The notes under the pieces: generated by a model
Told to the model about the DNA's origin: nothing
Databases searched by the model: none
Seen by the model: the letters and a program-made list of their open reading frames with translations, nothing else
Position numbers and translations under genes: made by a program
Part shown: piece after piece, positions 8,836-17,910 of the stretch
Numbering within the stretch: position 1 is the stretch's first letter
Layout of the letters: each line of letters starts with the position of its first letter
Source: Flavobacteriales bacterium
GTDB taxonomy: Bacteria > Bacteroidota > Bacteroidia > Flavobacteriales_D > Crocinitomicaceae
DNA: 64,000 nt
Assembly: GCA_947462255.1 (NCBI GenBank)
Contig: CANHOA010000014.1
Coordinates: 1 to 64,000, forward strand
Reading direction: 5' to 3'

Positions 8836-9291
8836 GAATTTTTGAGTTTTCTATTTCGTATCACCGATCAAAATCCTAAACAAATTGATAACTAGATAAT
8901 TAATTTTAATTTCAATAATTATTCTATTTGTCTTTCTTTTTTCCTTGACAAAAAAAGAAACACCACGAAGTAGCAGCGAAGCTAAAAAAGTCAAGGCTCT
9001 AAATTTCTATTTTTCCGCCGTGGCGTAAATTTTTACTCCTTTCTGAAACTGAAATTTTTCAAAAATGTTCTTGCAGAAATTTTAAAAATTAACAGTTTTA
9101 GTTCAGTATCAAAAACCATGAAATTTAAGGCCAAATATTTACGTCGGGGCGAACGCTAACATTCACTATATAACTCTAATTTCGAAACAATTCTTGAATT
9201 TTTCTTAACATCAAATTATCATACAAGTACAATTACGAATATTCAACAAGAATTTATTCAAAAACATAAAAAAAAGCCCTAAAGAAAATCT
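8836..9291. other. 456-bp gene-free stretch after fabI
   Basis: No convincing reading frame is seen on either strand. The centre (about 8941-9157) holds nested inverted repeats described separately. The right end runs into the bidirectional hairpin at 9274-9300. No tRNA-like structure was found. Confidence 0.6.
8943..9151. repeat. Structured intergenic element with nested inverted repeats
   Basis: Two hairpin-forming parts lie side by side. The first has perfect 7-bp arms, ccttgac at 8943-8949 and gtcaagg at 8990-8996. The second has imperfect 15-nt outer arms at 9016-9030 (cgtggcgtaaat) and 9137-9151 (atttacgtcggggcg), with inner arms ctgaaactg at 9043-9051 and cagttttagttcag at 9093-9106. 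Local GC is higher in the arms than around them. It could be a dispersed intergenic repeat, a small non-autonomous element or an untranslated RNA; the sequence alone does not decide. Confidence 0.5.
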
Positions 9292-9304
9292 TTAGGGCTT
9301 TTTT
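9268..9304 (-). terminator. Strong terminator at the end of the DAB operon
   Basis: A perfect 12-bp stem (9274-9285 with 9289-9300) has a 3-nt loop. On the minus strand it is followed by eight T; on the plus strand by six. It ends the leftward operon and overlaps its last codons, and could also stop rightward transcripts from fabI. Confidence 0.9.
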
Positions 9305-10077
9305 GTTGGCCATGAATGACATCTTATCTTAAATTTTGTAAAATCTATGTTGTAAGTAGTAGAAAACCAAAGCGTATGGTTCCTTTCAACTTTAATTCCA
9401 TCTGATTTAAATACCATCTGATTTAAATAACCTACTTGAATATTAAAATTAGGATTGAATCGCCAACCTAAGGCTGCAATAAATCTATTTTGATCTAATA
9501 CATTTTTTGCAACACCTTTTCCAAAACCTAAGAATACCTCATCATTTACATTCAAGAAAAGGGTGTTATTCGCCATTTCCTTGCGACTCAAGGGGATATT
9601 TACCATCATTCTATATCGAACACGATTTCGATAATTATCTTTTCCTTGCACAAAAGCACCTGAAGAATTAGTCCAATTATCAATTAATCGTTGCTCCATC
9701 CGATAGCGATGTTGCATATCAAAACGACCATATTTAGCCTTTAAATTTACCTGTTCCCAAATACGGTTTTCATGTGACTGATGACTAATGGGCTGTTCAC
9801 CATATTGATAAGAAATAATGGAAGCATATCCAGCCGTAAAGGAGATGTTTGGATTGTGATAATAGTCTAAACCAACCCTAAGTAAAGATTGTTGCCAATC
9901 GTTAAAGAAATCAGCTCTTCGCCATTGGTACTCCGTATGGACACCAAATTTCTTGCTGATTTTATGATTCCCCGTATATAAAACCCAAGCATTATTTTGA
10001 TTTGAAATTATTTTTTGAGCATAGCTCCCTCCTACTATACATAATACGAGGAAAAATATTGAAATTAATTTATTCAT
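9292..10077 (-). CDS. DUF2490 domain-containing protein, predicted outer-membrane barrel
   Basis: A 261-residue protein with a signal peptide at residues 1-20 (CIVGGSYAQ). The mature part is alternating hydrophobic/aromatic beta-strand sequence (HTEYQWRRADFF, QQSLLRVGLDYY, NISFTAGYASI, ENRIWEQVNLK), typical of DUF2490, a Bacteroidota family predicted to form outer-membrane beta-barrels. The final residues WPTKKP are encoded inside the terminator stem. It starts 1 bp after the SulP stop codon, so it belongs to the DAB operon. I infer that it could provide an outer-membrane path for the transported anion; no direct evidence exists. Confidence 0.7.
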   Translation of the reverse strand: MNKLISIFFLVLCIVGGSYAQKIISNQNNAWVLYTGNHKISKKFGVHTEYQWRRADFFNDWQQSLLRVGLDYYHNPNISFTAGYASIISYQYGEQPISHQSHENRIWEQVNLKAKYGRFDMQHRYRMEQRLIDNWTNSSGAFVQGKDNYRNRVRYRMMVNIPLSRKEMANNTLFLNVNDEVFLGFGKGVAKNVLDQNRFIAALGWRFNPNFNIQVGYLNQMVFKSDGIKVERNHTLWFSTTYNIDFTKFKIRCHSWPTKKP

Positions 10078-10078
10078 G

Positions 10079-11713
10079 TTATTTCTTCTTTCGCTTTGCG
10101 GCTAAATGATGTTTCGATTTGCCTATATTTTTTAATTCCTCAATACCTAGAATGGTCAAGCTACCTCCTTCGGTTGTAAAATCATTTTTTATATGATACA
10201 ATGTCTCAATAACAGAATGATCAATAAAAACGCAATCAGTTAAGTCCAAAATTACATCATCTGTAAATTTAAATGAATGAATTTTATTTTTTACTTTAAT
10301 AAAATTACTAAAAACGGCAGCGTTATAAACCGTTATTGTTTTTCCGTGAATTTGTGATTTCGCAGAAAAAAGACTTCTGAATTTTACCCCTCTACCCAAA
10401 TGTAATAACAATTTTAAAATTATTCCAGCACCAATTCCAATTAACAAATCAGTAGCTAAGGTAAAAATGATGGTCGTAATAAAAACGGCAATTTGATCCG
10501 ATCCAATTTTTGCCATGTGGCCAAATTCTTTTGGATGCGCCAATTTCCAACCCACGCCAATTAACATGGCGGCTAGAGCAGTTTTAGGAATTAAGTCACT
10601 AAATGAAACGGCAAATAATAAAAATAATAAAATGAAAACACCATGAAAGAAATTTGCCCAACGTGTTTTGGCGCCATTATTAACATTAGCAGACGAACGA
10701 GCCACCTCACTGATCATGGGAATGCCACCAAGTATACCAGCAAAAATATTACCCGCTCCCACAGCTATTAAGTCTTTATTTGTATTGGACCTTCTTTTGA
10801 ATGAATCCAACTCATCAATTGCTTTGATGGTTAATAATGATTCTAAGCTTCCAACCAAAGCAAACATGATCACAAATTTTATAAAAGTCCCCGTCTGCGA
10901 CATTCCTTCAAAACTAACATTCACTCCAATGATGTCTTTGAGTCCTTTTTTAAACTCTAACAAAGGAGAAAAGGCCTCTTGAATAATTACACCATGGGCA
11001 TTTTTGATTTCTTGAATATTATGCACCCCCAAAAGCATCACTAAAGGAATTGAAACAACTAATACTACAAGTGCCGCAGGAATTTTCTTTAAAAATTTAA
11101 TAGGAATTAGTGGCCAACAAAAAACGATAATTAAACTGACCAACCCGATTTCGTCAACCTCTTTGTGCTTAAAAATATGAAGAATTGTATTTTTTAATTC
11201 AGCTAACAACTCTAGAGGTTCAACCATTGGTTTTCCTGATTCTGTTAAAGGATTCATACCGACAAGAATATGCAATTGCTTACTGATAATGATAATCCCA
11301 ATTGCGGCAAGCATTCCATGAACAGCAGATAATGGGAAAAAATCACTTAAAGAACCTAACTTTAATAAGCCGAAAATTACTTGAAGAACACCCGCAATTA
11401 CGACTGCTCCTAATGCTAATTTCCAACCAAGATCTGAATTACCATGACCTAATTCAGAAACAGCTCCAGCTACAATTACAATAAGTCCAGCTGCAGGACC
11501 TTTTATCGTTAATAAAGAACCGGCAAAGAAACTGACCACAAGTCCACCAATCATTGCGGTAATCAAACCATAAACCGGTGGAAAATCACTTGCACCTGCA
11601 ATACCTAAACTTAAAGGCAGTGCCAATAAGAAAACTAAAAAACCTGATAGCGCGTCACTTGAAAAATTTTGTTTCAAACCTTCGAAACCATCTTTTGGCA
11701 AACTTTTTTTCAT
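10079..11713 (-). CDS. SulP-family inorganic anion (probable bicarbonate or sulfate) transporter
   Basis: A 544-residue polytopic protein. The N-terminal part LSGFLVFLLALPLSLGIA...FPPVYGLITAMIGG and the GPAAGLIVIVAGA segment match the SulP/SLC26 transmembrane core. The segment GGIPMISEVARSSANVNNGAKT is the conserved cytoplasmic turn. A short STAS domain follows (about residues 440-530, DDVILDLTDCVFIDHSVIETL), then a basic tail. SulP proteins exchange or cotransport sulfate, bicarbonate and other anions. It lies 29 bp after dabB in the same operon, so bicarbonate is the likeliest substrate, by inference only. Confidence 0.88.
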   Translation of the reverse strand: MKKSLPKDGFEGLKQNFSSDALSGFLVFLLALPLSLGIAGASDFPPVYGLITAMIGGLVVSFFAGSLLTIKGPAAGLIVIVAGAVSELGHGNSDLGWKLALGAVVIAGVLQVIFGLLKLGSLSDFFPLSAVHGMLAAIGIIIISKQLHILVGMNPLTESGKPMVEPLELLAELKNTILHIFKHKEVDEIGLVSLIIVFCWPLIPIKFLKKIPAALVVLVVSIPLVMLLGVHNIQEIKNAHGVIIQEAFSPLLEFKKGLKDIIGVNVSFEGMSQTGTFIKFVIMFALVGSLESLLTIKAIDELDSFKRRSNTNKDLIAVGAGNIFAGILGGIPMISEVARSSANVNNGAKTRWANFFHGVFILLFLLFAVSFSDLIPKTALAAMLIGVGWKLAHPKEFGHMAKIGSDQIAVFITTIIFTLATDLLIGIGAGIILKLLLHLGRGVKFRSLFSAKSQIHGKTITVYNAAVFSNFIKVKNKIHSFKFTDDVILDLTDCVFIDHSVIETLYHIKNDFTTEGGSLTILGIEELKNIGKSKHHLAAKRKKK

Positions 11714-11742
11714 AACTAAAATTTTAGATTAATAAATAAACA

Positions 11743-13611
11743 TTAAGAAGAGCGCTTGGCTACTTCGTGGTAATTTTTAACATGTGGCCCCAAGAATATT
11801 CGGGCATAAATTCGAATGGTGGCTAGACCATTTATGATTAAACTTAAAGCAGTAAACAATGCTAATCCAACCTGATGGTAATGGATATGTGAAAAGATTA
11901 AATCTTCACCGATAAACGTAGGAGTAATCGGAAATCCAGCAAAACCTAAACAACACAATAGAAAAATCAATGCTGTTTTGGGGTGTTCATAAGCATGTCC
12001 GTAAAATTGATTGAGACTGATCCATACTTCTCTTTTTCGAAGGTAATTAATGACCATTAATCCAACAAACCAAGAACCAAGAACACCACTCAGGTACCAA
12101 ACATGATGCATCCAATCAAAATGCGCATTGAACGAAATAGCAATTGCTATTGCTAAATGATTAAATAAAATCAGCGTCCAACTCTTCCGAACACTGTCTC
12201 TTTCCGAGAAGGCTTTGATGGCTATTAGAAAACCAAAAACTGAGAAAAAGAGAGGTAATTGATGCTTGACTTCAATATCAATTTTGTCGCTAAAATAAAG
12301 AAGGACAAGACCCAAACTCATCATAAATGCAATGACATAAAAGATATACTTGAAATTCATCCAAGTCCATCTACCCCCAATTCGTTTTATCGGATTCCAT
12401 AAATAACGATACATCAAACTATCTAAATTCCATTCCTTTAGACTTAAAATGAAGATGGTGTTTTCGATACGTTTAGGCAAAGTATCTTCAAAATTTCTAA
12501 TTCGTGGTTTATATTCATACAACTGTTCCCTTATCTTATAACTCACAACAGAGGGGGAAATCAACAATTGATACGTTCTCAAAAAGGCATTTCCAGCAAT
12601 ATGAATTAGCGCAATAATTTCTAAGCCAAAAGCTATCTCAATAAAAATCAATCCAATTTGTGCAATAGAAGAATAGGCAATTTGACTTTTAATTGAACTT
12701 TGAACACGTGAAATAAAAGTGGCAATTATAGCTGTCAGCGCACCGGAAATAATTAAAATGATCTTAAAAATTGTTTGAAACTCCCAAAATGGATAAGTCC
12801 TTAACAATAAAAATGCCCCAATGTGAACCGACAAAGAGCCATAAAATATAGCACTTGAGGGCGTTGGACCTTCCATAGCTCGAGGTAACCAAGAAGAAAA
12901 AGGTAATTGAGCAGATTTCGCTGAAGCAGAAATAAAAATCATTAAGGCAATTGCTAACCCAACCAAGGAATTATCCGCCAAATGATGATGTACCAACTCT
13001 GTATTATTTATCTTCAGAAAAGAAATGTTTTCATGCCACAAATGATGCGATAACCACATGGCTAATATTAATCCCACATCCCCAATTCTATAAATTGAGA
13101 ATACTTTTACCGCATTTTTAACAGGAAGATATCGATCACGATAAAATGCTATTAGTAAAAAAGAAGAAATTCCTAGAATTTCCCATCCAATAAATAAGGT
13201 TTCAATATTTCCGGAAAAGATGATGATGTTAAATCCTGAGTAAAAGAAAAGAACAGCATTAAAAAAACGTTTATATCCCTCTTCTCTGTGAAGATAATAC
13301 CTACTATAGACCGTAATAACGAAAGTAATTAAAGATCCTAGAAGCAGGTAAACCAATGTGATTCTATCGACATAAAAATCAATAAAAAAATCATAATTAT
13401 TGGCTTTATAAATTGAGAATTCTTTTAAGTTTAAAATGGGAGTCCCCTTACTTATCCATAAGATCAAAAATAACACTGCTGCTATAAATTGTAAGCCCAC
13501 CGAAACAAAAGCAACGCGTGATAAAAGGCGTTCTTGTTTTTTTGGAATCATCACACTTACCATAAATGCAACGATCGGCAGAAGAATAAAGAGGTGAATA
13601 AACTTTTCCAT
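11743..13611 (-). CDS. dabB: DabB, NuoL-like membrane subunit of the DAB inorganic-carbon pump
   Basis: A 622-residue polytopic membrane protein of the NuoL/MrpA antiporter-like family. The proton-path residues of this family are visible: Glu144 in FIGWEILG and Lys232 in SASAKSAQLP, followed by WLPRAMEGPTPSSA. His263 lies in SVHIGAF. The C-terminal long helix of true NuoL is not evident, and no other complex I genes are nearby. With its neighbour dabA 3 bp upstream this forms the DabAB pair, in which DabB is thought to couple ion or proton movement to CO2 hydration by DabA. Its 3' end lies 29 bp before the SulP gene. Confidence 0.9.
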   Translation of the reverse strand: MEKFIHLFILLPIVAFMVSVMIPKKQERLLSRVAFVSVGLQFIAAVLFLILWISKGTPILNLKEFSIYKANNYDFFIDFYVDRITLVYLLLGSLITFVITVYSRYYLHREEGYKRFFNAVLFFYSGFNIIIFSGNIETLFIGWEILGISSFLLIAFYRDRYLPVKNAVKVFSIYRIGDVGLILAMWLSHHLWHENISFLKINNTELVHHHLADNSLVGLAIALMIFISASAKSAQLPFSSWLPRAMEGPTPSSAIFYGSLSVHIGAFLLLRTYPFWEFQTIFKIILIISGALTAIIATFISRVQSSIKSQIAYSSIAQIGLIFIEIAFGLEIIALIHIAGNAFLRTYQLLISPSVVSYKIREQLYEYKPRIRNFEDTLPKRIENTIFILSLKEWNLDSLMYRYLWNPIKRIGGRWTWMNFKYIFYVIAFMMSLGLVLLYFSDKIDIEVKHQLPLFFSVFGFLIAIKAFSERDSVRKSWTLILFNHLAIAIAISFNAHFDWMHHVWYLSGVLGSWFVGLMVINYLRKREVWISLNQFYGHAYEHPKTALIFLLCCLGFAGFPITPTFIGEDLIFSHIHYHQVGLALFTALSLIINGLATIRIYARIFLGPHVKNYHEVAKRSS

Positions 13612-13614
13612 TTC

Positions 13615-16101
13615 TTAATGATTTAATTCCATTACAGGTAAATTCTCGTGTTCCATAGTCAACAAATTCAATAATTCATCGTCTTGAATTGGAGTCAATG
13701 ATTTCACTATTCCTTCATAGGGTACAAAAGCTCCTTTAATAAATAAATAAGCCTTTTTTTCAATAGGATGAAGCACCACTATTTTAACCCATTCATTTTT
13801 AAACCACTCATAAGTTGCAGGATTGATCTGCATAGTTTGTAAAACAACAGCTGGAAAATGTTCTACAATGACCATCAATCGCAAAGGGTCGTGTACTTCA
13901 ATCATTTGAGATGGAAGTCCCGTTCGTAAATCTCCATCTACACCATTTGCCACACCAATTAATCCCATAACATTATGAGGAAGCTTTGTTCCAGCACCTA
14001 ACATCTGATTATCAACCCTTGAGAAATAATATTCCAAATTGATGCCACCGCAAACAGGAGCAACTGCATTTAGAATTCCTAAAAGATATTTACCTGTTGG
14101 ATCAACGGTGTAATCAAAAGAATTTAGAAATGAACGCCTATCTAAAAACAATTCTTGCGTCACTGATCTTCGCCCGACTATGCATAAGGTATTGGTTGCA
14201 TGATTCAGTTCAGGCCGAGGTTCAAATAAAGATACGGCTCTTAATTTCACCTTTCTGTGCACTTTTTTTAGTGACTTAGAAGAGTCCATAACCACAAAAC
14301 GACGAGATCTTTCTTGAGAATTTAAGTCTAATGCTTCCAAATAATATACTTTATTTTGTGCATGTAGCATTATATTTTCTGCATTCATTATTCCTTCGTC
14401 AAAATAACTCATTTCATCTCGACAGGTATCGTGTAAAATACCTACAAATTGAGTAGCAGTAGGGATTTCAATTCCACGCTTTACTAATTCTTTACGCACC
14501 TCATCATGATTTCCTATAAAACTCATTACCCTTGCATTTACAGAACCTGGCCGACCAGAACATGCTCCGCAATCATACCCAGCATAATGCGTATTATTAG
14601 CACTGCTAGAACCATGTCCAACAATATATATAAGTGGCGCGAAATTTTTGTTGAGTCCAATACTCATTAACAATCCTTCCAAACGATCGGCCATTTGTTC
14701 AACAGTAAAACCAATTTGCAATCCATCCTCTGAAAATTCACCTGCTTTATGTTCAATCGTTAAACATGCAGCAGTATCCATATGTCGAGAAGACGAAACA
14801 GATGCCGCATTTTGAATTGGCTTAAAAATGGACGCTAACAATTTCAATCCAGACCAAAACCCAAGCGTATGGGACGCCAAGAGTCCTGGCAACAATCCTT
14901 GAACCTTATTATTAAAATGCCATTCTTTTTTTCTTGTACTTGGATTCTCAATTTCTTTAATTAAAAATCGAGGAGTAATTGGAGCGGGACAAACTTTTGT
15001 ATAAAAAGGACTGTGCTCGGGCTGAAAATAAAACTCCACATTAAAATGCCCTGCTGTTCCGTAAGTTTCTATGGCAGGATGTAGCTGTTCAATGTGTCTT
15101 CTCAAGGAACATTCCCGATCATCAATACAAAAGATAGATTGCAATAAAGGAGTCGATTTATGAGGGACAGATGTCTTTTGAAGCAATCCATTTATCACCT
15201 CGTCGTAATAGGTTTTTTCATAAGCATCTTGCCAAATCGCCCGCACAGTTGCTAATTCATTTGGTAACGTAGGGGCAAATAATGCAGCTATGTCTTCCTT
15301 AATTCGATAACTAATTGGGGACCAAATTTCACCGAAATAATAATCTAATGCATCAATTTCCAACAACAATTCAAAATGAATAAACTCTTGAAAATCTATC
15401 CGCTTTCCATCAAGAAGTGCCTTATCATCTTCAGACAATACGGCCACCATCCCCGACCAACCTGGATGCGAAAATTGTTGATCAAAAAGATAATGCTCAA
15501 AGAGCTTTTCTTCTCCAACAACAAGACTTAACAGGTCTAATAGTGAAGTTTCCTCATCATGTAATAATTCGCGTGCATGTTTACCCCTAAAGAAACTTGT
15601 CGCACTTGATTTTTCAACTTGTCGAATGGCAGATAAAAAACCATCATTTGAAAAAGGTGAAATCCATGTCGCAATCCCCTGATCTAAATAACTGCTTAAT
15701 ATTCTAAACAAAAGAGGATGCACCATGGCATCCATATCCATGTGAAAAGATGCTTTCCAATGTTTTCGCACATTTTCGATGCGGGGAATTACATTCTCAT
15801 CAAAAATCTCATTCAACACTTTTTCTTTAATGTGGATTGAATTGTGCTCAATTAATGAGTAATCAAGTGCATTTTGGCTTATTTTCCCCTGTTCGAACAA
15901 TTGTCGATAATCCGATACTTGCAAGTAGGTTTTATAGCCAAATATTTCATTCGCACGATTCAAGGCATCATGGAATGAGCTTTGCTGAAAAGCATGTAAA
16001 GTATTATGATGTATAAAATCTTTGAGTGGGGATTGGGCTGGTAGATGATGCTTTAAATCATGCAAAACCTTATCCAAATCAAAGGAAAGGGTATTTTTCA
16101 A
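13615..16101 (-). CDS. dabA: DabA, DUF2309/UPF0753 carbonic-anhydrase-like subunit of the DAB pump
   Basis: An 828-residue soluble, peripheral protein. All four predicted zinc/active-site residues of the beta-carbonic-anhydrase-like centre are present: Cys325 and Asp327 in FCIDDRE, His496 in VGHGSS and Cys511 in YDCGAC. Their spacing (171 and 15 residues) agrees with the described DabA of Halothiobacillus. The start FDLDKVLHDLKHHLPAQSPLKDFIHHNTL is typical. With DabB it forms an energy-coupled vectorial CO2-to-bicarbonate system at the inner membrane. It is 3 bp upstream of dabB and 62 bp downstream of a small secreted protein gene. Confidence 0.95.
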   Translation of the reverse strand: MKNTLSFDLDKVLHDLKHHLPAQSPLKDFIHHNTLHAFQQSSFHDALNRANEIFGYKTYLQVSDYRQLFEQGKISQNALDYSLIEHNSIHIKEKVLNEIFDENVIPRIENVRKHWKASFHMDMDAMVHPLLFRILSSYLDQGIATWISPFSNDGFLSAIRQVEKSSATSFFRGKHARELLHDEETSLLDLLSLVVGEEKLFEHYLFDQQFSHPGWSGMVAVLSEDDKALLDGKRIDFQEFIHFELLLEIDALDYYFGEIWSPISYRIKEDIAALFAPTLPNELATVRAIWQDAYEKTYYDEVINGLLQKTSVPHKSTPLLQSIFCIDDRECSLRRHIEQLHPAIETYGTAGHFNVEFYFQPEHSPFYTKVCPAPITPRFLIKEIENPSTRKKEWHFNNKVQGLLPGLLASHTLGFWSGLKLLASIFKPIQNAASVSSSRHMDTAACLTIEHKAGEFSEDGLQIGFTVEQMADRLEGLLMSIGLNKNFAPLIYIVGHGSSSANNTHYAGYDCGACSGRPGSVNARVMSFIGNHDEVRKELVKRGIEIPTATQFVGILHDTCRDEMSYFDEGIMNAENIMLHAQNKVYYLEALDLNSQERSRRFVVMDSSKSLKKVHRKVKLRAVSLFEPRPELNHATNTLCIVGRRSVTQELFLDRRSFLNSFDYTVDPTGKYLLGILNAVAPVCGGINLEYYFSRVDNQMLGAGTKLPHNVMGLIGVANGVDGDLRTGLPSQMIEVHDPLRLMVIVEHFPAVVLQTMQINPATYEWFKNEWVKIVVLHPIEKKAYLFIKGAFVPYEGIVKSLTPIQDDELLNLLTMEHENLPVMELNH

Positions 16102-16163
16102 GAAGACTATTTTAAATTAGTAACTATTCTAATAAGGGCTATGCCACAATTAATAGTTATAAT

Positions 16164-16541
16164 CTAAATCCTGAAATTTTGAAATTGAATAAATAGAGGT
16201 AATGGAAAAAATAAGCCTTTCCTTTCCGTATCCCTAAGGACCAATTTAGAAGTGAAAATAGAGGCCGAATATTCGTAAAACTTAGAATATAAAACAGAAA
16301 GGTCAAATTCCTTGTGATTTTCAGCTCCCTCATCATCAGAAGAATTATTGAATTCTTCATCGGACTCTTCATTTTCTTGAATGGGAAATGAAAGATTTTT
16401 GGATTGGTCTGAAAAACACTCCGTTTTACTTGATGGCGATGTTACAGCTAATTTATTAACTGCATAGCCATAAAATGAATTGAAGAAAATAGTTATGGCA
16501 ACTATACAAGAAAGTAATTTGCTAAACATTTTCAATATCAT
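16164..16541 (-). CDS. Small secreted/membrane protein preceding dabA, unknown
   Basis: A 125-residue protein starting at the ATG at 16541; an in-frame ATG at 16529 (MFSKLLSCIVAITIFFNSF) is equally possible and fits better the short distance to the -7 box at 16546-16553. A signal peptide or anchor (about residues 5-27) is followed by an acidic linker (EENEESDEEFNNSSDDEG) and a C-terminal Phe/Leu-rich part (SVLYSKFYEYSASIF, GLFFPLPLFIQFQNF). I do not recognise the family. As the first gene of the leftward unit, 62 bp before dabA, it is probably co-transcribed and may be an accessory or an independent small envelope protein. Confidence 0.55.
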   Translation of the reverse strand: MILKMFSKLLSCIVAITIFFNSFYGYAVNKLAVTSPSSKTECFSDQSKNLSFPIQENEESDEEFNNSSDDEGAENHKEFDLSVLYSKFYEYSASIFTSKLVLRDTERKGLFFPLPLFIQFQNFRI

Positions 16542-16600
16542 TTAGCAAAACTACTGTTATTTTATTAAATAAGTACAGTTGGATATAAAATTTGCTAAAT
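16518..16600. promoter_or_regulatory. Three TTTGCTAAA sites in the divergent dab / rocD region
   Basis: TTTGCTAAA occurs at 16518-16526, inverted (TTTAGCAAA) at 16541-16549, and again direct at 16591-16599. The first two form a perfect 9-bp inverted repeat with a 14-bp gap, covering the start codons of the small gene. The second overlaps the leftward -7 box, and the third lies between the rightward -33 and -7 boxes. They look like operator sites for one regulator; the first pair could alternatively form an RNA hairpin over the start codon. Confidence 0.45.
16546..16553 (-). promoter_or_regulatory. -7 box of the DAB operon promoter
   Basis: Read on the minus strand this is TAGTTTTG, matching TAnnTTTG. 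No clear TTG is seen at the usual -33 distance, which would suit an activator-dependent promoter. It overlaps one TTTGCTAAA copy. Confidence 0.45.
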
Positions 16601-16612
16601 TCTATATCTTTG
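16579..16612 (+). promoter_or_regulatory. Promoter of the ornithine aminotransferase gene
   Basis: TTG at 16579-16581 and TATCTTTG at 16605-16612 are separated by 23 bp, somewhat longer than optimal. The -7 box is a full match and lies 29 bp before the ATG. Confidence 0.55.
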
Positions 16613-16641
16613 TGGCACCATTATAAACGGTACAATTCCTT

Positions 16642-17910
16642 ATGACTAATCAGCCAACACACTACATAGAACAAGAAAATCGCTTCGGCGCTCATAATTA
16701 TCATCCACTTCCTGTCGTACTGGCAAAAGGAGAAGGTGTCTTTGTTTGGGATGTGGAAGAAAAAAAATACTTCGATTTTCTATCTGCTTACTCAGCGGTT
16801 AATCAAGGTCATTGTCACCCAAAAATTGTGGAAGCATTAATTTCACAAGCGCAAGAATTGACGTTAACATCCCGAGCTTTTTATAATGATTCCCTTGGAC
16901 CGTACGAAGAATATATGCACCAATTATTCGGCTTTGATAAAATGCTACCCATGAATACGGGAGCGGAAGCCGTAGAAACAGCCATTAAAATTTGTAGAAA
17001 ATGGGCCTACGAAAAAAATAACATCGATGAAAATAAAGCGATAATCGTGGTTTGTGATGGCAATTTTCATGGCCGCACCACTACCATCATTTCATTTTCC
17101 AGTGATCCAGACTCCAATAAAAATTTCGGGCCGTATGCTCCCGGTTTTATTTCCATACCTTATAACGATATTGCAGCATTGGAACAGGTGCTAACACTAC
17201 CAAATATTGCTGGATTTCTGGTTGAACCAATTCAAGGTGAAGCAGGTGTTTATACCCCATCAACAGATTACATCGCTAAAGCACATCAATTGTGTAAAAA
17301 AAATGGTGTCTTATTTATTGCGGATGAAATTCAAACAGGCATCGCTCGCACAGGAAGTCTTTTGGCTGTATGTGGGAATTGTACCTGTGAAAGTCAATGT
17401 GAAAGACAAGCAAGCTACGTAAAACCTGACCTTTTAATTTTAGGAAAAGCGCTTTCTGGTGGCGTCTATCCCGTTTCTGCTGTGTTAGCAGATGATGAAA
17501 TCATGATGGTGATACAACCAGGTCAACATGGTTCCACATTTGGGGGAAACCCAATCGCAGCCAAGGTCGCAATTGCTGCATTAGAGGTGGTAAAAGAGGA
17601 ACAGCTCATTCAAAATGCACGCGTATTAGGAGATTTGTTCCGACGGGAAATACAGCGAATTATTGATAAAAACGATCTGTTAGTGCTCGTCAGAGGAAAA
17701 GGCTTACTCAACGCAATTGTCGTAAACGATTCAACTGAAAGCTCCACTGCATGGGATATTTGTGTCGATTTAATGCACAATGGATTATTAGCAAAACCAA
17801 CTCATGGAAACATCATTCGCTTTGCACCACCCCTTACCATTACAGAAGTACAATTGATGGAATGTATTGCAATTATTGAAAAAACGATTCTTAACTTCAT
17901 AAAAAAATAA
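16642..17910 (+). CDS. rocD: Ornithine--oxo-acid aminotransferase
   Basis: A 422-residue class III PLP-dependent aminotransferase. The PLP lysine is Lys269 in [10 protein letters not shown], with Asp228 in FIADEIQTG. The substrate-binding region [16 protein letters not shown] at residues 12-27 and [10 protein letters not shown] are diagnostic for ornithine aminotransferase, which makes glutamate semialdehyde and glutamate from ornithine and 2-oxoglutarate. A short insert after RTGSLLAV contains four Cys (244, 247, 249, 253; [10 protein letters not shown]), absent from the classic Bacillus and human enzymes. I believe flavobacterial homologues share it. The phosphomutase gene follows after 5 bp. 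Confidence 0.93.

Follow-up and report, generated by a model that had tools for sequence, protein, structure and literature searches.

We analysed a 64,000-nucleotide stretch of DNA (positions 1 to 64,000 of contig CANHOA010000014.1, assembly GCA_947462255.1) from a bacterium of the Flavobacteriales, referred to here as the window, which carries a DAB-type inorganic-carbon operon. The operon comprises five genes, all on the minus strand and ordered from position 16541 to 9292: a small exported open reading frame (ORF), dabA, dabB, a SulP anion transporter gene (sulP) and a DUF2490 gene. The gaps between them are 62, 3, 29 and 1 bp, respectively, and the genes are probably co-transcribed. All five lie, with these spacings, where a preliminary description of the locus had placed them, and the ORF coordinates agree. 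The dabA gene (13615..16101), which has a TTG start, encodes an 828-aa protein that matches PF10070 over its full length (701.2 bits, cut-off 25) and aligns to the solved DabA2 of Halothiobacillus neapolitanus. The adjoining dabB (11743..13611) encodes a NuoL-like protein of 622 aa, recognised by the Pfam models Proton_antipo_M/N (PF00361, 141.6 bits, cut-off 21.5), with residues E144 and K232 and a C-terminal GFPITPTFIGEDLIFSH containing E569, D570 and H575. The SulP protein (10079..11713; 544 aa) is of the PMISEVARSSAN type and matches PF00916 (217.2 bits, cut-off 23.2), while its STAS match falls slightly under the cut-off (20.1 of 22.6). The DUF2490 protein (9292..10077; 261 aa; PF10677, 185.5 bits, cut-off 29.8) has a signal-like N-terminus and is a predicted outer-membrane beta-barrel. 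The small ORF at the head of the operon (16164..16541; 125 aa) combines a signal-like N-terminus, an acidic middle and a C-terminal tail PLPLFIQFQNFRI at the stop.

Recurrence of the gene set in Bacteroidota

Since the five-gene set recurs across Bacteroidota, it is beyond chance. Two draws of genomes were surveyed. The order draw contained 150 genomes with DabA in 36, of which 35 loci were inspected, the window included; an order genome with dabA on a 3.7 kb contig (G110) was left out. The phylum draw contained 296 genomes with DabA in 20, of which 19 loci were inspected. Loci in which dabA precedes dabB were called type A, and those with dabB before dabA type B. The order draw gave 29 type A and 6 type B loci, and the phylum draw 9 and 7; two loci were not typable (L123, L139) and one was without a DabA gene model (L141). 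For the family tests, L002, L078 and L080 were removed as duplicates, and near-duplicates among the named contigs are still included. Six plasmid loci of Staphylococcus, Halobaculum, Mycolicibacterium, Methylocystis, Pantoea and Azospirillum served as outgroups.

The sulP gene is strongly tied to type A. Over both draws it stands in the same-strand run of 29/34 type A loci with room, four loci ending within or just past dabB having been left out of the count (L070, L073, L092, L095), versus 0/13 type B loci, among which L097 is counted although it stops just after dabA (Fisher test, p = 6e-8, relatedness not corrected). The type A figure divides into 23/25 for the order draw (a scripted 23/24 plus L084, entered by hand as a sulP-less locus) and 6/9 for the phylum draw. 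In L091, SulP and DabA are fused in a single frame of 1394 aa with both Pfam domains, and in L133 and L134 a divergent sulP lies next door to dabAB. Additionally, sulP occurs beside beta-carbonic anhydrase (beta-CA) genes: L137 has the order sulP (in two pieces)-betaCA-dabA-dabB, L195 has small ORF-sulP-betaCA, and of the two SulP matches in the whole window genome one belongs to this operon and the other is directly upstream of a beta-CA gene. All six outgroup loci have dabB first, and none has an annotated SulP in the fetched stretch, for which the gene table is incomplete. Together, the conserved linkage across Bacteroidota, the fusion and the sulP-betaCA pairs support the view of the preliminary description that SulP is a true partner of the DabAB system. 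A literature search found no paper on DUF2309 in Bacteroidetes, and an earlier mention of the linkage in Desmarais 2019 or Schmid 2021 is possible.

SulP–carbonic anhydrase pairs and fusions were reportedly described by Felce and Saier in 2004. Like these pairs and BicA, the type A operon joins a SulP to a CO2/bicarbonate enzyme, by adjacency or by fusion; the partner here is however DabA instead of a soluble beta-CA, the SulP carries PMISE rather than PITQV, and it lies far under the cut-off of the BicA model. Specifically, the motif search placed 54/62 SulPs and left 8/62 outside; those of DAB loci that it placed carry PMISE[VI][AV]RS[ST][ASN]N. PITQV[VI]VRSSAN is found in L100, in L195 and in the second SulP of L075, all three of which are paired with, or fused to, a beta-CA.

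Some DAB-linked SulPs (L007, L012, L133, L134 and others) are about 710-734 aa long, extended at the C-terminus by about 190 aa, and no Pfam domain covers this extension in the L007 protein, the one protein searched. A fused beta-CA was considered as the cause of the ~730 aa SulPs and rejected, as two home-made profiles and Pfam (on one protein) found none; a beta-CA end is present in one SulP alone, the second copy of L075. Interrupted or split ORFs were also observed in DAB operons (L013, L098, L094, L137), with DUF2490, dabB and sulP each split in two and dabA holding an in-frame stop. The Mycolicibacterium plasmid (L199) has dabB-dabA followed by an annotated carbonic anhydrase gene.

DabA and DabB of the type A operons

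The zinc site of the window DabA comprises C325, H496 and C511 plus the Asp-Arg dyad D327/R329. Residues C325, D327, H496 and C511 align with Cys351, Asp353, His524 and Cys539 of DabA2, and E144 and K232 of DabB with E144 and K229 of NuoL, so that each key residue named in the preliminary description has a known counterpart. The zinc ligands and the dyad are invariant in 64/64 type A, 12/12 type B and 6/6 outgroup proteins. These features, namely the DabA family, the Cys2His zinc ligands, the Asp-Arg dyad and a NuoL-like DabB, are shared with the DAB2 complex of H. neapolitanus (DabA2/DabB2, PDB 9rd0; excerpt of PMC13144422). Unlike DAB2, type A has the dabA-dabB order, a His at the Leu658 position and no Glu at the position of Glu444; moreover, its DabB is about 100 aa longer than that of type B and has a conserved Glu-Asp motif, and sulP, barrel and small gene are linked to it. 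At the Leu658 position, His is found in 64/64 type A proteins (His634 in the window), in contrast to Leu in 12/12 type B and 6/6 outgroup proteins, and hhalign agrees with this placement. According to the same excerpt, Leu658 is strictly conserved among 150 homologues, where it takes the place of the canonical Gln/His. MpsAB of Staphylococcus aureus (PMC6689103, consulted in part) likewise represents DabA/DabB relatives in a non-autotroph; a plasmid relative from S. pettenkoferi departs from type A in its dabB-dabA order and in carrying Leu and Glu at the two sites, and the stretch fetched around it shows no annotated sulP.

The type A DabB retains E144 and K232, each in 61/61 proteins, and has a median length of 622 aa (n = 61) versus 522 aa in type B (n = 13). 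A GFPxxxxFxG-ED motif is present in 55/62 type A DabB proteins, compared with 0/12 in type B and 0/6 in the outgroups, and the second place of the motif is Asp in 60/62. In the predicted DabB model (predicted local distance difference test, pLDDT, 83.0) the motif appears as a broken helix (544-558 and 564-574), which recalls the broken helix of NuoL. As stated in the excerpt of PMC13144422, Glu444 of DAB2 stands in for the Lys-Asp pair of that NuoL helix, and from the model we infer that the half-channel residues of type A may be located in DabB rather than in DabA. The aligned rows in the DabB structure search stop near residue 447 of 622 and hardly reach the C-terminal part, and 9rd0_B is not among the 50 best matches listed in either DabB structure search. 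DabB 543-608 aligns with residues 391-456 of cyanobacterial NdhF in a 5-bit segment, a lead rather than proof. Elsewhere, in a genome without a dabA match, a 235-aa dabB-like piece adjoins DUF2490 (L111), and a partly duplicated NDH-2-like gene is present there as well.

The predicted outer-membrane barrel and the small exported ORF

Two kinds of barrel protein occupy the same slot of the operon. In the order draw, the run includes a barrel gene at 17/25 type A loci (DUF2490 at 13, a protein of ~450 aa at 4); in the phylum draw a barrel is found in 3/9 type A runs, one DUF2490 and two ~450-aa proteins. The slot is never filled by both in the counted runs. Nine proteins of the first set belong to the ~450-aa family; none of them has a Pfam match (9/9 without), and all five tested match the NCBIfam model porin_ExtI (NF040900) under its cut-off, with a best E of 1.7e-20; this ExtI-like protein does not occur in the window. 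The AlphaFold2 model of DUF2490 (10 sequences; pLDDT 81.5, predicted template modelling score 0.74) is a barrel with 11 listed strands, whose best structural neighbours include PcoB (Z 15.4), NanC (Z 13.9), KdgM (Z 13.1) and BrkA. This fold is close to the NanC/KdgM type, and a porin role is putative. Foldseek with the same model gave nothing at E <= 0.001 (best E 3e-3), and PDB sequence searches with the DUF2490 and ExtI-like alignments gave no match at E up to 10. The idea that DUF2490 forms an anion path, offered in the preliminary description as new, was preceded by TCDB 1.B.81 (PMC4827864, in part), which already lists this family as a putative porin with a predicted outer-membrane barrel. 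Compared with the TCDB entry, the window copy belongs to a 40-row set that holds most DAB-linked DUF2490s (SH-aLRT, Shimodaira-Hasegawa-like approximate likelihood ratio test, 91).

The neighbours of DUF2490 were inspected for the best 72 among the matches listed. Fifteen of these lie in DAB operons or contig-broken parts thereof and seven are same-site orphans; one follows sulP and an ion transporter, one follows a truncated dabB, two are directly upstream of a beta-CA gene (L113, L146), L112 follows a bestrophin gene and L119 a phosphate transporter gene, and the others have other neighbours. Pfam confirms the neighbour identities at L113, L146, L112 and L119. In L113 and L146 the distance to the beta-CA is 13 and 61 bp, and the N-terminus of the beta-CA looks like a lipoprotein signal. 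In another family, DUF2490 lies near cysteine-synthase-like genes (L178, L180), and in L178 it comes 40 bp after an aminotransferase gene resembling the one that flanks the window operon. A terminator-like stem of 16 pairs with a T-rich tail (9270..9304, minus strand) marks the operon end and overlaps the last codons of the window DUF2490 gene, whose end lies beyond that of the relatives aligned with it.

The small ORF, in agreement with its earlier description as an unrecognised secreted protein ahead of dabA, has nothing above the Pfam cut-off (its two matches there, at E 0.09 and 0.1, are at chance level) and no NCBIfam match. An ORF of 80-190 aa ends just before the first operon gene in 60/61 type A loci with >500 bp upstream, the exception being L129, and in 54/55 loci with >2500 bp upstream, compared with 17, 8 and 8 of 55 in control windows. 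With a leave-one-out profile from which close kin were also removed, the small ORF ranked first in its locus in 55/60 cases, the window included, and reached E < 0.01 in 54; those not ranked first are L024, L075, L076, L095 and L132. The predicted linkage of a small gene in related genomes thus holds for a homologous family. A hydrophobic, signal-like N-terminus is present in 59/60 members, the middle is acidic (D+E 18% vs 7% in control ORFs), and dN, the nonsynonymous divergence, is below dS, the synonymous divergence, in 6/6 pairs. The family diverges greatly outside its C-terminal tail (e.g. PLFIQFQNFRI), and a C-terminal pattern drawn by eye fits 31/60 small ORFs vs 29/964 control ORFs. 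Judged by sequence, the small ORF belongs to a fast-evolving, exported family that is so far unnamed.

When the 150 order genomes were searched with profile A1, the 18 best matches (E up to 1.7e-12) were all at dabA loci; since A1 itself holds most of the best-matching rows, only the weaker places are informative. Fifteen of the 20 non-dabA places (E up to 0.0014) were fetched, that is, all except G023:C9, G064:C8, G069, G072 and G120. Nine of them head an MFP-RND pair (L184-L188, L191, L192, L194, L196), three lie by sulP without dabA (L182 with an ExtI-like porin, L195 with a beta-CA, and L190 downstream of sulP), and three have other settings. Such relatives at the head of RND operons or next to sulP without dabA make a shared leader role no less probable and weaken the earlier suggestion of a DAB accessory protein; the small ORF may act as a leader and not as a subunit.

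The junction RNA (16102..16181, minus strand) is predicted to form a stem that takes in the final codons of the small ORF with its stop codon and reaches almost to the start of dabA. The minimum free energy z-score is -3.3 for a 107-base stretch around this stem. Over 55 loci the mean z is -2.30 at the junction vs -0.40 for a stretch inside dabA, and the margin over other same-strand gene gaps is modest (-2.75, n = 52, vs -1.75, n = 54; p = 0.002); for ten other operons headed by a small ORF the value is -3.71 (p = 0.001). Scoring by gap-bridging pairs gives a weaker signal (p = 0.008, and 0.10 for the ten other small-headed operons). RNAalifold found no consensus pairs on nine junctions, which leaves the junction RNA evidence weak, and Rfam over 9000-17200 gave nothing near the gathering scores, four weak matches overlapping the terminator. 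Candidate exported leader ORFs with a motif at the stop precede sec genes in Bacteroidota (NAP-stop/NSP-stop; excerpt of PMC10987492); these and the SecM/VemP-type peptides resemble the small ORF in the export signal, the variable middle, the conserved C-terminal end and the structured junction. Those peptides differ in preceding secA, secDF or yidC, while the small ORF precedes dabA, and stalling is putative here.

Proposed role and competing readings

We read the operon, with a probability of roughly 0.6, as a Bacteroidota type A DAB/DAC module that raises cytoplasmic bicarbonate, with SulP acting beside DabAB and with a non-specific barrel. In complex with the NuoL-like DabB, the beta-CA-like zinc enzyme DabA would hydrate CO2 diffusing into the cell, and ion flow through DabB would make the hydration one-way. 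SulP would carry bicarbonate over the inner membrane beside DabAB, as is thought for SulP with ordinary beta-CAs. The barrel, DUF2490 here and an ExtI-like porin elsewhere, would offer a general outer-membrane path that is not specific to DAB, and the small ORF would serve as a leader or regulator, or as a periplasmic helper, common to several kinds of envelope-transport operon. The envelope-spanning CO2/bicarbonate supply of the preliminary description is retained in its DAB system, SulP partner and outer-membrane barrel slot, and loses the dedicated DUF2490 anion path. Bicarbonate supply is the likely function of the operon from its gene content. RuBisCO, reported absent from the window, was not found in the whole genome (95% complete) either, its large-subunit family PF00016 having no match. 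Anaplerotic carboxylation, the use proposed earlier, is not borne out, as ATP-dependent phosphoenolpyruvate carboxykinase alone was present among the enzymes searched, and demand is likely to come from other carboxylases.

Several observations weigh against this reading. Neither phosphoenolpyruvate carboxylase nor the pyruvate-carboxylase domain PYC_OADA was found in the genome, other carboxylases and fixation routes not having been searched, which makes the demand for bicarbonate unclear. The genome encodes two beta-CAs, so DAB is not its sole carbonic-anhydrase-like enzyme. L084 and L129 have dabAB and no sulP in the fetched stretch, and 8/25 type A loci of the order draw have no barrel in the run. 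The window SulP scores far under the cut-offs of the NCBIfam BicA equivalog NF050096 (124.9 bits, cut-off 880) and the NCBIfam sulP model (187.6 bits, cut-off 380), which leaves its substrate undecided. Finally, at the Glu444 position type A has Glu in 0/64 proteins (Gln 37, His 13; His411 in the window), in comparison with Glu in 5 and Ser in 7 of 12 type B proteins and Glu in 6/6 outgroups, in a finger region that is hard to align, as hhalign puts His411 at Glu444 and phmmer differs. The absence of the glutamate renders DAB2-style proton coupling uncertain. In an unlikely alternative, DabA of type A would be constantly active as a carbonic anhydrase, without being strictly ion-driven, and would pair with SulP to balance bicarbonate or pH, whichever the direction. 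The uniform His at the canonical transition-state position, where Gln/His is the canonical residue, is in line with this alternative, as are the SulP-betaCA pairs and the SulP-DabA fusion; Glu444 changed to Ala or Gln inactivates DAB2 (excerpt of PMC13144422), yet 37 type A proteins have Gln. However, by the same excerpt Leu658Gln shows no CO2 hydration in vitro and several Leu658 changes are still active in vivo, so that one residue need not decide coupling and the His alone need not alter function; the difficult alignment of the finger and the retention of E144, K232 and the Glu-Asp motif in type A DabB, as if ion flow mattered, also speak against it. Somewhat less probable still is a distinct machine, in which SulP-DabAB would be one carbonic anhydrase-transporter unit with the carbonic anhydrase His in DabA and the half-channel residues in an enlarged DabB, and translation would be set by a leader peptide that is exported, belongs to a new family and also governs RND-efflux and SulP-betaCA operons. 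The least probable alternative, and very unlikely in our view, is that SulP transports sulfate or another anion and lies beside dabAB through shared regulation only. The Pfam family name (sulfate permease) agrees with it, and in L071 the operon is followed by a protein that reads by eye, without a family search, as a cysteine synthase; but this protein has a relative in 1/68 type A loci, L071 itself, and the linkage contrast between the types, the fusion and the sulP-betaCA neighbours in the window genome and others speak against it.

The remaining alternatives concern the two outer genes. At nearly even odds, the DUF2490 barrel gene is a resident of the site with a separate function, beside which the small ORF-dabA-dabB-sulP block comes and goes. 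Upstream, the window operon is flanked by a class-III aminotransferase gene in divergent orientation. Seven genomes of the same genus in which dabA has no match (L102, L104-L108, L110) keep DUF2490 beside the same gene, a further point against a barrel that belongs with DAB. On the DUF2490 tree these seven copies interleave with DAB-linked ones in three starred clades, which we read as repeated loss of the rest of the operon; DAB-linked copies are clustered without forming one clade (13 label changes), and the 40-row set excludes L022 and L116. At least 143/150 order genomes match the family, and with the site copies in the seven genomes this speaks against a dedicated anion path; the conserved linkage stands in that DUF2490 recurs in DAB runs, not in being specific to them. 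Against a mere resident, other families have the dabA-dabB-sulP-DUF2490 order at different sites as well, sulP and DUF2490 remain paired as a divergent unit in L134, and elsewhere this slot is filled by the ExtI-like porin. A partner role and an independent function of DUF2490 are not exclusive. A little less probable than the resident barrel is that the small ORF encodes a periplasmic protein binding DabAB or SulP. The signal-like N-terminus, the acidic middle and dN < dS would suit such a protein, but its weaker relatives at MFP-RND operons (9/15) and by sulP without dabA (3/15), its great divergence save for the tail and the modest junction RNA structure weigh against it.

The coupling of CO2 hydration to ion flow in DABs is still under debate on the basis of a single solved complex, and type A provides a natural comparison clade in which an active-site residue differs, the finger glutamate is gone and DabB perhaps compensates. 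Further outcomes of the survey are a likely transporter partner for DABs (one natural fusion), an outer-membrane slot with two barrels and an unnamed small family that also occurs at RND-efflux operons. Beyond the DUF2490 end of the window operon lies an enoyl-ACP-reductase-like gene, and elsewhere in the window genome (L101, contig C34) the second beta-CA gene comes right after a bestrophin-like gene.

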